In this document: positions 55,959 to 61,106 of the stretch, one piece after another
How the letters are laid out: each line of letters opens with the position of its first letter
Numbering within the stretch: position 1 is the first letter of the stretch
Source: Demequina activiva
GTDB lineage: Bacteria; Actinomycetota; Actinomycetes; Actinomycetales; Demequinaceae
DNA length: 64,000 nucleotides
Reading direction: 5' to 3'
NCBI RefSeq assembly: GCF_016862815.1
Contig: NZ_BONR01000003.1
Location: 62,001-126,000, forward strand
Translations under genes and position numbers: made by a program
Notes under the pieces: generated by a model
Told to the model about the DNA's origin: nothing
Databases searched by the model: none
The model's input: only the letters and a program-made list of their open reading frames with translations

Positions 55959-56480
55959 TCAGGCCGCTTCTTCCTGCTTGGCACGCAGGGCGTCGACAGC
56001 ACGCGCCGCCTGAGCGAGCGGTGCCTGGAACATGTATGCCGCACCGAACAGCGATGCCTTGAAGGCACCCGCTGCCTTGGCGAGCAGCACTTCGCGGGAC
56101 TCGAGGTCTGCGAGCTTCTGGATCTCGGATGCCGAGAGCACATTTCCGTCGAGCACGCCGCCCTTGAGGACGAGCGCGTCGTTGGTCTTGCTGAACTCCT
56201 TCAGACCCTTTGCAGCCTCCACCGGATCACCGGTGACGAATGCAATGGCCGTGGGGCCCACGAAGAGGTCGTCGAGACCCTCCACGCCGGCTTCCTTGGC
56301 CGCGAGCGCCGTGAGAGTGTTCTTCGCGACCCTGTAGGTCGCGGCGCCGCGCAAGTTGCTACGCAGCTCAGCGAGCTGCGGAACAGACAGACCGCGGTAC
56401 TCGGTGACGATGACAGCGTTGGACTCGCGGAAACGGTCCGCGATCTCCTTGACTGCCGCCACCTTGTCTGGCGTCGCCAT
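55959..56480 (-). CDS. rplJ: 50S ribosomal protein L10 (uL10)
   Basis: A 173-residue stalk base protein. [20 protein letters not shown] and the L12-binding C-terminal helix ([11 protein letters not shown]) are canonical. In many bacteria the L10-L12 complex represses its own mRNA by binding the leader; a suitable structured leader lies upstream. Confidence 0.96.
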
Positions 56481-56727
56481 GTTTGTCCTTCCTCTGGGTG
56501 ACCGCCGTCGCCTCCTTGCGGAGACGGCCCGTCCCGGGAACAGACAAGGCCCCGCGCAGGCGGGGCCGGTGGCGCATCGGCCTCACACACGAAAGGCGAC
56601 CCGAAGGTCGCCCTGAGGTGTGCGCGCGAAGCACTCTCGATCTCACCTGCGCTGGTCCCCGCTGCTGCGGGACTTCGGTCGTATCCGGATGCTCCGGACC
56701 CGACGACCGGCGGTCTTGGGCCTTGAC
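56481..56727 (-). promoter_or_regulatory. rplJ leader, candidate L10(L12)-binding autoregulatory RNA
   Basis: About 240 bases of predicted 5' UTR with two clear stem-loops: GGCCCCGC-N4-GCGGGGCC (56548-56567) and GGCGACC-CGAA-GGTCGCC (56595-56612), the latter flanked by CCTCA/TGAGG that would extend it past an internal loop. Size, position and the kinked-hairpin look fit the L10-leader class; identity is inferred. Confidence 0.55.
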
Positions 56728-56764: not shown

Positions 56765-58345
56765 TCAGAGACCGTGGGGGCCGCGGACGAAGCGGACGGC
56801 GCCGGAGGGGCCGAAGGTGCGCACGTGGCGAGCCGCGAACAGCGACCGGCCCAGCCACGCCCGCGATCCCCAGGCGCGGGTGACCGCGGCGGCGCGAGCC
56901 TCGAGGTCCTCGTCCGTCGCCCAGCGCGAGCCCGAGCTCTCCCGCGGGTGCATCGCGATGGTGATGGGCACGGCCTCCGCACGCATGCCGGCGCGCATCA
57001 CGTCAGCGATGAAGATGTACTCGTCGCCGAGGTACAGCCGGGCGCCGGCGCCGAACCGCTCGTCGAACCAGACGTCCTGCGCCTTGACCTGGTCCATGTC
57101 CACGACCATCTCGTAGGTCGCGGCCTTCCCGCTGGTCAGCAGCGACAGGCGGCGGTCCCGCGTCGTGTACTTCTTGCGCAGGTTGCCGTCCTCGTCGACG
57201 GCGCGTGCGAGCACCAAGGCCGCCCCCGTGTCCCGCATGTGCGCGACGACGTCGGAGATGCCGTCGAGGTCCACCGTCACGTCGTCGTCGCAGAACACCA
57301 GGTACTTGCGCGTCGCCTGGCGCATCACCTCGTTACGGCTCTTGGCGACGCCCCGAGAGCGCAGGACGGTGACGGCCGCCCCCTTGTCCTCGAGCGCCGC
57401 GATGGTCTCCTGCTCCGACTCCGACGGGCCCTGGTCGCCGCCGGTCTGGGCGACCACGACCACCTCAGCGCCGCGCATGGACGCCGGGTCCGGGATCCCC
57501 TCGAGCCGGGACGACAGGCTCGAGTAGCCGATGGTGACGTCGGGCAGCTGGCCGCGCCGTGCGCCGACGAGGCCCTTGTCGCGGTTCGCGAGCGCCCGGG
57601 CGAAGCGCATCGCGCCAGAGGACAGGTTGCTGAGCTGTCCGTACATCAGACGCAGGCCCAGGAACAGCACGATCGCGTTGTCGAGCGGCGCCTCCCCCGC
57701 GAGCACCTGCCACAGCAGCGCCCCGAGCATGAGCACCAGCGCCGCGGAGCCGATCATCGCGCCCTGCTCGCCCGTGATCACACGGGTGCGCACGCGCAGC
57801 GCGATCGAGTCCGAGCTGGGCTTGGCGCGCGTGTACGCGAACTCGCGCTGGATGCGCAGCTGACGGTCGAACATCGAGGCGACGAGGGCGATCACGAAGC
57901 CCGCGACGAACAGGTTGACGATGCCGATGAGCGGATCCAGCACGAGGAACAGGAGCGAGAACACCGCGGCCTGGACCAGCGTCGCGAGCACCCCGGTGAG
58001 CTCGAAGGCGAGCGCCCACTCCCAGCTCTGCTGACTGGGGCTGGGGGCGCGGTCGGAGTCCCTGAACGCGGTGTTGATCGCGCGCACCCGATAGGCCCGG
58101 GCGGCGTGCTGCATCCCGCGCGCCACGATGAAGGCCGCGAAGAAGATCGCGATCTGGACGAACACCGCCTGCGGATCGGTGCGGATCAGCTCGGGACCGT
58201 CGATGACCATCCCGGAGAACAGCTTCGCCACCGCCATCTCGGACAGCGGCACGATCGCGATGACCACGATGAGCCCCAGGATGACGTTCTTGTGGCGCCG
58301 CGCCGGGAACAGCTCACGCAGCGCACCCCACAGGTGCGCCAGCAT
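56765..58345 (-). CDS. Fusion of a six-helix ABC-exporter-like membrane domain and a GT-A glycosyltransferase
   Basis: A 526-residue two-domain protein. Residues about 20-235 contain six membrane segments arranged in pairs, with a cytoplasmic-type segment (DRQLRIQREFAYTRAKPSSD) and LRLMYGQLSNLSSGAMRFAR, resembling the transmembrane domain of type I ABC exporters. No nucleotide-binding domain, Walker A or ABC signature follows. Instead residues about 290-510 form a GT-A fold: AKSRNEVMRQATRKYLVFCD with FCDDDV (the DxD site, 351-356) and WFDERFGAGARLYLGDEY, typical of family 2 enzymes. It starts two bases after the upstream pyruvyl-transferase fusion gene. A membrane-tethered glycosyltransferase or a combined transfer/flip protein is inferred; donor and acceptor are unknown. 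Confidence 0.75.
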   Translation of the reverse strand: MLAHLWGALRELFPARRHKNVILGLIVVIAIVPLSEMAVAKLFSGMVIDGPELIRTDPQAVFVQIAIFFAAFIVARGMQHAARAYRVRAINTAFRDSDRAPSPSQQSWEWALAFELTGVLATLVQAAVFSLLFLVLDPLIGIVNLFVAGFVIALVASMFDRQLRIQREFAYTRAKPSSDSIALRVRTRVITGEQGAMIGSAALVLMLGALLWQVLAGEAPLDNAIVLFLGLRLMYGQLSNLSSGAMRFARALANRDKGLVGARRGQLPDVTIGYSSLSSRLEGIPDPASMRGAEVVVVAQTGGDQGPSESEQETIAALEDKGAAVTVLRSRGVAKSRNEVMRQATRKYLVFCDDDVTVDLDGISDVVAHMRDTGAALVLARAVDEDGNLRKKYTTRDRRLSLLTSGKAATYEMVVDMDQVKAQDVWFDERFGAGARLYLGDEYIFIADVMRAGMRAEAVPITIAMHPRESSGSRWATDEDLEARAAAVTRAWGSRAWLGRSLFAARHVRTFGPSGAVRFVRGPHGL

Positions 58346-58347
58346 CG

Positions 58348-60162
58348 TCAGGCGCCGGTCTCGTTCTCGAGCAGCTCGAGTCCGCGACGCATCGCGGCCT
58401 CGATCTCGTCCAGCTTCGCGTCGCTCACCTTCTCCTCGATCGCCATGCCGCGCAGGTCCACCTCACGGAGGTCGATCGGAACGTTGATGGGCTCGTAGAC
58501 GCGCTGCAGGCCCGCGCCGCGCGAGTAGTCCTCGTACTTGATCCCCGTGCCGTGCACCGAGGACTCGAAGCCCTCGAACGTCACCAGGGTCACCGGGATG
58601 CCATACGCGTGGCATACGATCATCACGTGCATCGCGCTCGTCACGACCATGTCGTACTTGACGAGCGACTCGAGGAACTCCGCGATGTCGTCGGGGTGCG
58701 AGCGCAGCACGCTCAGCTCGTCGACGTCGGACGGCAGCTGCAGGTGGATCGGGATGTGCGTGTAGTGGCGCACCAGGGCGATGCGGCCGTTGGTCTCACC
58801 ACGCGAGATGGGCAGCACCCTCGACACGAGCAGACCGGGGTCGCCGAACGAGTCGACGTCCTCGCCGCCGCTGTCCTTGAGCGCCTGCGCCGTGAGCGGG
58901 CCTCGCACCGAGACGTAGGTGGCCTTCTTGACCAGCTCGACGTCGAGGCTCGAGATGCCGGTGCCCACCACCACGGAGTTGCTCTTGATGAAGCGACCGA
59001 TCGAGCCGATGCTCACAATGTTGGGCTTGCTCGACACCGCCGTCGGCGGCAGGAAGGTGATGGGACGCTCGGTGTAGTGAGCAGCGATGAGGGGGCTCAG
59101 CCAGTCGCCGAAGTTCCCAGGGAACGGACGGGCCCACCACACCATGGGAAGCGGCGATCCCTGGCCGCGGGAGGCGTAGTACGCGAACGCCTCCGCGCCG
59201 CGGATGGCGTTGCGCTCCTTGGTGGTGGGGATCCCCAGGCGGGTGAGGGCGGCGGCGCGATCCTGCAGCGCCTCGACATCGCCGTTCTGGCCGTGACGGA
59301 GGATCTCCCGCAGGATGGCCTGACGGTGCGGCGAGTCGGACGCCGCGCCAAGGGTCGCCTCGGCGGTCCCGAACGATCCTCCGGTGAGGACTCCCGTCAC
59401 GCCGGCGGTGTCGGACACGCGGCGCAGCGTCTTCGCGGCGCGCGCAGGAAGCGCGCGCTCGGCGCGCTTGGCGGCCTTGCGACCTGCCTCCCGCACGCGC
59501 ACGCTCAGCGGAATCTTGACGGTGTCCATGTCACCGGTGTGCTGGACGACCTTGCCCTTGAACTCCGCGACGTTGCCGCTCGAGCCGAACGAGAAGAAGG
59601 GGCGGGCATCCGTGTCGGCGCCCACCTCGGGGGCCACCACGGCCGTGCGAGGGAGCATCTGGAAGGACAGGGTGCCGGCGTTGGCGCGCCAGGACTCCTC
59701 GAAGAAGTAGTCGTCGGTCGCCTTGATGTCAGCGGAGCGCTCGTACTCGTACGCGTCACGGATGAACTTGCGTCCCATGGGGGTGGGCGCGATGCCGAAG
59801 AAGCAGGGCTCCCAGAAGCGCGTGCGGCGGTGGTAGCCGATCTTCAGCGGCGAGCCGAAGCCGCGCTGGAAGCCGAGGATGTCCGCGGTGAAGCCCGCGA
59901 CGTACTCGGGGAGGTCGAGGAGCTTGCAGTCCACGTCGATCCAGAAGACGCGCTTGTCAGGGTGGCTCTCGCACACTCCCGCGAGGAAGCCGATCTTCTT
60001 GCGACAGATGTCTGCCCAGTCCTCGCCCTCCTTCTTCTCGACCTCTTCGAGGACGTGCTCGATCCCCAGGTTCTCGAGGTTCTTGCGAAGGCTCTCCGCG
60101 TGGGCGCGATAGTAGTCATCCGCCGTGTAGAACGAGCAGACGACGACTCCTGACATGTCCAT
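58348..60162 (-). CDS. Fusion of a GT-A-like domain and a polysaccharide pyruvyl transferase
   Basis: A 604-residue protein. Residues 1 to about 215 look like a GT-A nucleotide-diphospho-sugar transferase: RVFWIDVDCKLLDLPEYVAG gives a DxD at about 76-78, with GFGSPLKIGYHRRTRFWEPC and TDDYFFEESWRANAG. After a basic linker, residues about 335-560 form a polysaccharide pyruvyl transferase domain: FPGNFGDWLSPLIAAHY, VRGPLTAQALKDSGGEDVDS with FGDPGLL, and VVTSAMHVMIVCHAYGIPVT. The family adds pyruvate ketals to cell-wall sugars using PEP. AAGGAG fixes the ATG at 60162; a Met two codons later is less well spaced. No signal peptide. Both domains may act on the same glycan; this is inferred. Confidence 0.8.
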   Translation of the reverse strand: MDMSGVVVCSFYTADDYYRAHAESLRKNLENLGIEHVLEEVEKKEGEDWADICRKKIGFLAGVCESHPDKRVFWIDVDCKLLDLPEYVAGFTADILGFQRGFGSPLKIGYHRRTRFWEPCFFGIAPTPMGRKFIRDAYEYERSADIKATDDYFFEESWRANAGTLSFQMLPRTAVVAPEVGADTDARPFFSFGSSGNVAEFKGKVVQHTGDMDTVKIPLSVRVREAGRKAAKRAERALPARAAKTLRRVSDTAGVTGVLTGGSFGTAEATLGAASDSPHRQAILREILRHGQNGDVEALQDRAAALTRLGIPTTKERNAIRGAEAFAYYASRGQGSPLPMVWWARPFPGNFGDWLSPLIAAHYTERPITFLPPTAVSSKPNIVSIGSIGRFIKSNSVVVGTGISSLDVELVKKATYVSVRGPLTAQALKDSGGEDVDSFGDPGLLVSRVLPISRGETNGRIALVRHYTHIPIHLQLPSDVDELSVLRSHPDDIAEFLESLVKYDMVVTSAMHVMIVCHAYGIPVTLVTFEGFESSVHGTGIKYEDYSRGAGLQRVYEPINVPIDLREVDLRGMAIEEKVSDAKLDEIEAAMRRGLELLENETGA

Positions 60163-60407: not shown

Positions 60408-61106
60408 CTACCTGTCGGCCTTGACCGCGGTGTCGACCGGGATGCCCGGGCCGGTGGTCGCGGAGACGGCGGCCTTGATGATGTAGCGACCCTTGGAGGC
60501 GGACGGCTTGACGCGCTGGACCTCGTCGAGCACGGCCTGGAAGTTCTCGAGCAGCTTCTCGTCGCCGAACGACGCCTTGCCGATCACCGTGTGCAGGTTG
60601 GCGTGCTTGTCGACGCGGAACTCGATCTTTCCGCCCTTGATGTCGGACACGGCCTTCGCCACATCCATCGTCACGGTGCCGGTCTTGGGGTTCGGCATGA
60701 GGCCGCGGGGTCCGAGGACCTTTCCGAGGCGTCCCACCTTGCCCATGAGGTCCGGGGTCGCGACCACGGCGTCGAAGTCCTGCTTGCCGTTCTGGACCTC
60801 TTCGATCAGCTCGTCGCCGCCCACGAAGTCGGCGCCGGCCTCGCGGGCCGCCTCCGCCTTGTCACCGTTGGCGAAGACCAGGACCCGAGCGGTCTTGCCG
60901 GTGCCGTGGGGCAGGATGACGGTGGAGCGGACCGACTGGTCCGCGTGGCGGGGGTCGACGCCGAGCTTGAACACGACGTCGATGGTCGAGTCGGTGTTCT
61001 TCGAGGACGTCTTCTGCGCGAGGCGCACGGCCTCGAGCGGGGTGTACAGCTGGGTGCGGTCGACGAGCTGCGCCGCATCCTTGTAAGCCTTGGAGCGCTT
61101 GGTCAT
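60408..61106 (-). CDS. rplA: 50S ribosomal protein L1 (uL1)
   Basis: A 232-residue L1-stalk protein. [40 protein letters not shown] and [20 protein letters not shown] are the conserved blocks; the rRNA- and mRNA-binding surface is intact. Confidence 0.97.

Follow-up and report, generated by a model that had tools for sequence, protein, structure and literature searches.

We analysed a window of 64,000 nucleotides from Demequina activiva (contig NZ_BONR01000003.1, positions 62,001 to 126,000; coordinates below are those of the window), in which two adjacent genes between rplA and rplJ form what is well supported as an envelope-glycan module. Gene 1 (604 amino acids (aa); 58348–60162, minus strand) joins a glycosyltransferase (GT) domain of the GT-A type to a polysaccharide pyruvyl transferase, and gene 2 (526 aa; 56765–58345, minus strand) joins a membrane domain resembling ATP-binding cassette (ABC) exporters to a GT2 domain. 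Both were defined from open reading frames, translations and Pfam matches, together with an AlphaFold2 (AF2) model for gene 1 and codon usage for gene 2. The best explanation of the whole, for which we judge the case evenly balanced, is a glycan module whose ATPase-less ABC-fold domain binds, and most likely moves, a lipid-linked glycan. No report of this family or arrangement was found in the open-access literature.

Domain architecture of the two proteins

The pyruvyl transferase domain of gene 1 spans residues 335–540 (58543–59160, minus strand) and carries a T-S-A-M-H motif at residues 508–512. PF04230 was matched at residues 388–527 (E 5.3e-12, 46.7 bits against a cut-off of 25.3) and in 56/56 members of the gene 1 family. 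The N-terminal half matched no Pfam family; on the AF2 model of the protein (predicted local distance difference test (pLDDT) 88.3, predicted template modelling score (pTM) 0.82) it has a GT-A fold, and both aspartates of its DxD motif (D76-V-D78; 59929–59937, minus strand) are unchanged in 56/56 aligned rows. By fold only, this domain resembles GT-A enzymes of what we take to be the GT6/GT34 type; by sequence, the Protein Data Bank (PDB) gave no match to such enzymes. The ketal-pyruvyl transferases CsaB, WcfO and Pvg1p presumably share PF04230 with gene 1, which scores far under the CsaB family cut-off. Unlike gene 1, these enzymes have no GT fusion described in the excerpts available from PMC6801904. 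A second PF04230 protein is encoded in the D. activiva genome (G000:C1:566852-567775; L054, L131), its neighbours having been read by eye.

Residues 1–262 of gene 2 (57560–58345, minus strand) are predicted to form an elbow and six long membrane helices. This domain was folded alone, because the two halves were misaligned when membrane and GT2 parts were aligned together. The AF2 model was confident (pLDDT 91.9, pTM 0.86) and matched type IV ABC exporters in arrangement by Foldseek and VIA-align; at the level of the model, an ABC-exporter fold is well supported. Exporters of this type (IrtB, MsbA, PglK) share the elbow and six long helices of the model, but have ATPase domains and coupling helices that gene 2 lacks: Pfam found no ATPase domain in gene 2, whose remaining chain is GT2, and the modelled turns between transmembrane helices TM2–TM3 and TM4–TM5 comprise only six residues each. 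Likewise, profile alignment to exporters left two 12-residue gaps in the TM2–TM3 leg (TM5–TM6 lying outside the alignment). Charged residues inside the helices are retained across the membrane-part family, with E115 and E193 in 33/33 and E36 in 28/33 members, counts that describe conservation and not position in a cavity.

The GT2 part of gene 2 (residues 268–526; 56768–57544, minus strand) contains PF00535 at residues 312–396 (E 1e-9, 39 bits against a cut-off of 23.3) and the motif F-C-D-D-D at residues 351–355. In the GT2 alignment the metal-binding aspartates D84 and D85 are invariant and D86 is nearly so. Weak sequence matches in the PDB led to the wall-polymer enzymes 5tze (E 3.8e-8), presumably TarS, and TagF (E 1.8e-5), from which the gene 2 domain differs in being short and fused to a membrane domain. 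Together, these analyses bear out the first-pass annotation of this DNA in several respects: coordinates, strand and the 2-bp gap (58346–58347) that separates the stop codon of gene 1 from the ATG of gene 2, a GT-A domain with DxD at residues 76–78 joined to a pyruvyl transferase in gene 1, a six-helix membrane domain without ATPase joined to a GT-A domain in gene 2, and an ABC-exporter likeness for which structure prediction and Foldseek had been named as the check.

Distribution and linkage of the parts in relatives

A genome scan with gene 2, using patterns from both halves and thus favouring loci with either half, yielded 53 loci: the membrane part was present in 46, the GT2 part in 51 and both parts in 44. 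In none of these 44 were the two parts in one frame; the fusion was observed in D. activiva alone, and in the other genomes examined the parts are separate genes. Seven of the 53 loci held GT2 only (three of these are cut within the gene by a contig edge) and two the membrane part only (one at a contig end). The separate membrane genes led us to reject the idea that relatives carry GT2 only, an impression created by the candidate selection of the protein search (nine matches besides the query, covering 43–49%). Both gene 1 domains were present in 29/53 loci, and the pairing is modular: among the 26 loci with gene 1 and the membrane part, 19 had them within 60 bp on the same strand, six about 3.2 kb apart and one in divergent orientation.

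Among 44 Demequina genomes, nine had a gene 2 match and seven gene 1, in one case split over contigs, while four further genomes showed weak pyruvyl-transferase matches only. Within the nine, the membrane part is fused in D. activiva, a separate gene in G036 and missing from the other seven, which have GT2 alone. G030 was counted among these because its gene 2 match, which extended to residue 197 across one stop, gave no membrane-part match over that stretch at E 1e-4. Gene 1 and GT2 lie at rplA–rplJ in five of the nine (G041 judged from contig fragments), GT2 alone does so in G001 and G015, and in G040 and G043 the genes are at other sites.

Of 394 genomes sampled from the class, eight contained the membrane part, four a full-length gene 1 (12 had any match) and six GT2 (E up to 1e-20). 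The membrane part accompanies full-length gene 1 and GT2 in every genome that has either, and four of the eight membrane-part genomes have GT2 but no gene 1. The phylum sample contained the membrane part in 2/396 genomes; this part is rare and scattered. The claims of the first-pass annotation about organization therefore need narrowing. Its domain fusion is real in gene 2 but is not the general design; the conserved pairing applies to many relatives, with the four class genomes lacking gene 1 and the two Demequina genomes with GT2 alone as exceptions; and the ribosomal setting is found in Demequina loci only, the other loci examined lying near envelope-glycan or unrelated genes. Its passage of a sugar across the membrane is still a proposal, the membrane domain having neither an ATPase nor, on the model, the elements for one to grip.

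Several individual loci depart from these patterns. In G191 (L088 6168-8096) and G557 (L175), the sole two among 198 genomes of their genus, the membrane domain is fused instead to a pyruvyl-transferase-like domain (642–643 aa). The latter may be inactive, judging from its changed T-S-A-M-H motif, whose His we take to be catalytic; in G191 the fusion adjoins an intact gene 1, a possible enzyme/pseudo-enzyme pair. At L009 (8760-8800) only the first GT2-like residues follow the membrane gene before unrelated sequence on a continuing contig; GT2 was either lost here or is chimeric. One Rhodobacteraceae record (L050 7280-8711) has a GT2 relative on its own, directly after an ABC ATPase gene that is itself preceded by a gene that by eye resembles a chain-length protein; GT2 alone thus extends to proteobacterial capsule-type loci. 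The gene 1 tree places L002 and L034, titled as metagenome-assembled genomes (MAGs) of Bifidobacterium breve, together with MAGs of uncultured actinobacteria, and their titles are probably wrong.

Transport and alternative roles of the membrane domain

In the explanation that we favour, the GT-A domain of gene 1 would add a sugar, its second domain would put a pyruvate ketal on the chain and the GT2 part of gene 2 would add another sugar, the enzymes of both proteins being cytosolic and acting on a lipid-linked chain. The membrane domain of gene 2 would be that of an ABC exporter whose ATPase and coupling helices were lost, as happened in SbmA, and would probably be dimeric. It would keep the enzymes at the membrane and, through a cavity with many conserved Arg and Glu residues, bind the anionic glycan on its lipid, which it would most likely then move outward without ATP. 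Pyruvylation and its acceptor, the dimer, the cavity and substrate binding are steps that we infer; translocation and its energy source form the weakest step. We place transport by the membrane part a little short of an even chance, with movement of a lipid-linked glycan as the best single reading because of the conserved charges and the partners. By analogy with SbmA, a proton gradient would be the natural suggestion for what drives it. According to the excerpts available from PMC13316013, SbmA/BacA (SLiPTs) have a type IV ABC fold without ATPase or coupling helices, import peptides, bear an additional TM0 domain and lack an elbow helix. The gene 2 model agrees with them in the first respect but has the elbow and six helices only. 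For the glutamate ladder of SLiPTs, the conserved E36, E115 and E193 of gene 2 are candidate counterparts at most. Genetic linkage to glycan enzymes also sets the gene 2 family apart from SLiPTs, and SbmA was not among the 50 structural matches listed for its membrane domain.

Several points weigh against this explanation. Foldseek E-values for the membrane domain are modest (best 4e-4, three matches below 0.001), and no sequence family recognises it: PF00664 (ABC_membrane) was absent from the Pfam list for the D. activiva domain and from the 25 (of 27) families listed for 33 membrane-part members at E up to 1. In three remote members, whose alignment also held one opposite-strand frame of G557 that was disregarded, K41 is replaced by Gln twice, E115 by Asp once and by Gly once, and N144 is substituted in all three. 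The membrane part is dispensable, being present in 2/7 Demequina genomes with gene 1 and missing from 3/29 gene 1 loci (two of them Demequina that already figure in the former count), and a TagGH-type exporter in the D. activiva genome could perform the export.

The domain might instead be a retired transporter that only anchors GT2, and gene 1 through GT2, with TagGH or another flippase as exporter, a reading that we consider possible if somewhat doubtful. It would agree with the absence of ATPase and coupling helices, with the loss of the membrane part in relatives that keep the enzymes, and with the TagGH of D. activiva. TagGH/Kps-type exporters (families PF01061 and PF00005), which unlike gene 2 combine an ABC-2 membrane family with a real ATPase, lie upstream of the gene 1 and GT2 relatives of three genomes, all without the membrane part. 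In the genome of L096/L025 the order is TagG, TagH, gene 1, GT2, a GT8 protein and pyruvate-dehydrogenase-like genes; in L132 this order recurs, with TagH and gene 1 about 3 kb apart. L016 has a relative of the GT8 protein, then TagG and TagH, and after more than 1 kb gene 1 and GT2. D. activiva has the same TagG/TagH, likewise flanked by the HisC-like and dehydrogenase genes, but no glycan genes at this place (TagG, TagH, HisC and pyruvate dehydrogenase are presumptive names, given from sequence). In the remaining five genomes that carry GT2 and lack the membrane part, TagG is located elsewhere. TagG was thus present in 8/8 genomes with GT2 but without the membrane part (seven Demequina and L016) versus 6/16 with it (Fisher p 0.006, uncorrected for kinship and with unequal thresholds; the 16 were hand-picked, several from incomplete assemblies, and L050 was left out). 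As TagG occurs in 34/44 Demequina genomes overall, a tie between its presence and lack of the membrane part is suggestive only. The ten membrane-part genomes in which no TagG-like gene was found fit transport, since another exporter must act there, the search having covered TagG-like genes only; intrahelical charges are, moreover, kept beyond what an anchor would seem to need.

An ATP-driven exporter with its ATPase subunit encoded elsewhere would account for the fold match, and exporters whose membrane and ATPase parts are encoded separately do exist according to the excerpts from PMC13316013. The missing transverse coupling helices and six-residue turns of the model, the two gaps in the profile alignment and the lack of a consistently adjacent ATPase gene (in four loci and part of 21 loci) make this very unlikely. 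That sequencing error joined two overlapping genes is scarcely credible, even though the fusion is found in no other genome examined and the membrane-gene stop and GT2 start overlap or nearly touch in several relatives. Third-position GC is 0.94–0.99 throughout gene 2, across the joint, and no in-frame ATG, GTG or TTG occurs at residues 246–290, leaving the GT2 part without a start of its own near its N-terminus; on these two grounds the fusion is argued to be real. The bolder proposal of a second, independent ATP-free ABC lineage, stand-alone actinobacterial flippases of pyruvylated lipid-linked glycan that became hard-wired to a cargo-preparing transferase in D. activiva, we think unlikely.

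Locus history, glycan context and significance

The genes assigned as rplA and rplJ by reading their sequence flank the module, rplA ending at 60408 (245 bp upstream of gene 1) and rplJ starting at 56480 (284 bp downstream of gene 2). The bounding rplA terminator and rplJ promoter of the first-pass annotation were not confirmed: a terminator-like hairpin (56548–56567, minus strand) lies between gene 2 and rplJ, in a region with two such hairpins against 0.8 expected, and no sigma-70-like promoter was found in the region. The sole Rfam match, to a microRNA family (26.6 bits against a cut-off of 69), was taken as chance.

In the gene 1 tree (44 rows), D. activiva falls together with two genomes that lack the membrane part, G027 and G030, a grouping of limited support (80/90); G036, with its separate membrane gene, lies nearby. 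In the simplest account, the membrane gene stood at the rplA–rplJ site, became fused to GT2 in the D. activiva lineage and disappeared from the sister genomes. That the genes came from the Demequina TagGH site is a reading that we gave up; the G040 and G043 copies there form a separate long branch, which makes two acquisitions as likely as one move.

Downstream of gene 1 and GT2 in L096 (3877-6507) and L132 (5854-8469), an 877-aa protein combines a sub-cut-off pyruvyl-transferase match with GT8. L020 (4819-10178) and similar loci of uncultured actinobacteria contain a nucleotidyltransferase (NTP transferase), two CDP-alcohol transferases, one carrying DUF5941, the membrane gene, GT2 and a glycerophosphodiester phosphodiesterase (GDPD), which looks like an unstudied phospho-polyol glycan pathway. 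UDP-sugar enzymes were read near other loci. Pyruvylated wall polymers have been reported from actinobacteria, among them a pyruvylated galactan of Promicromonospora citrea, and knowledge of pyruvylating enzymes was called scarce in 2019 (excerpts from the review PMC6801904). The GT-A domain resembles alpha-1,3-galactosyltransferase, which makes a link to this galactan attractive; no match named Promicromonospora was among the best 120 of 962, most of them nameless, and the link remains a lead.

To our knowledge, secondary transporters on the ABC fold come only from the SbmA family. If the transport explanation is true, the ATP motor would have been lost more than once, with a second such family in Gram-positive envelope glycan synthesis and a small system holding enzyme and translocator in one chain. 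The pyruvylated wall polymers found in actinobacteria would also gain candidate enzymes. Should the membrane part be a platform only, it would still show plainly how a transporter fold can be put to new use as a docking site for enzymes.
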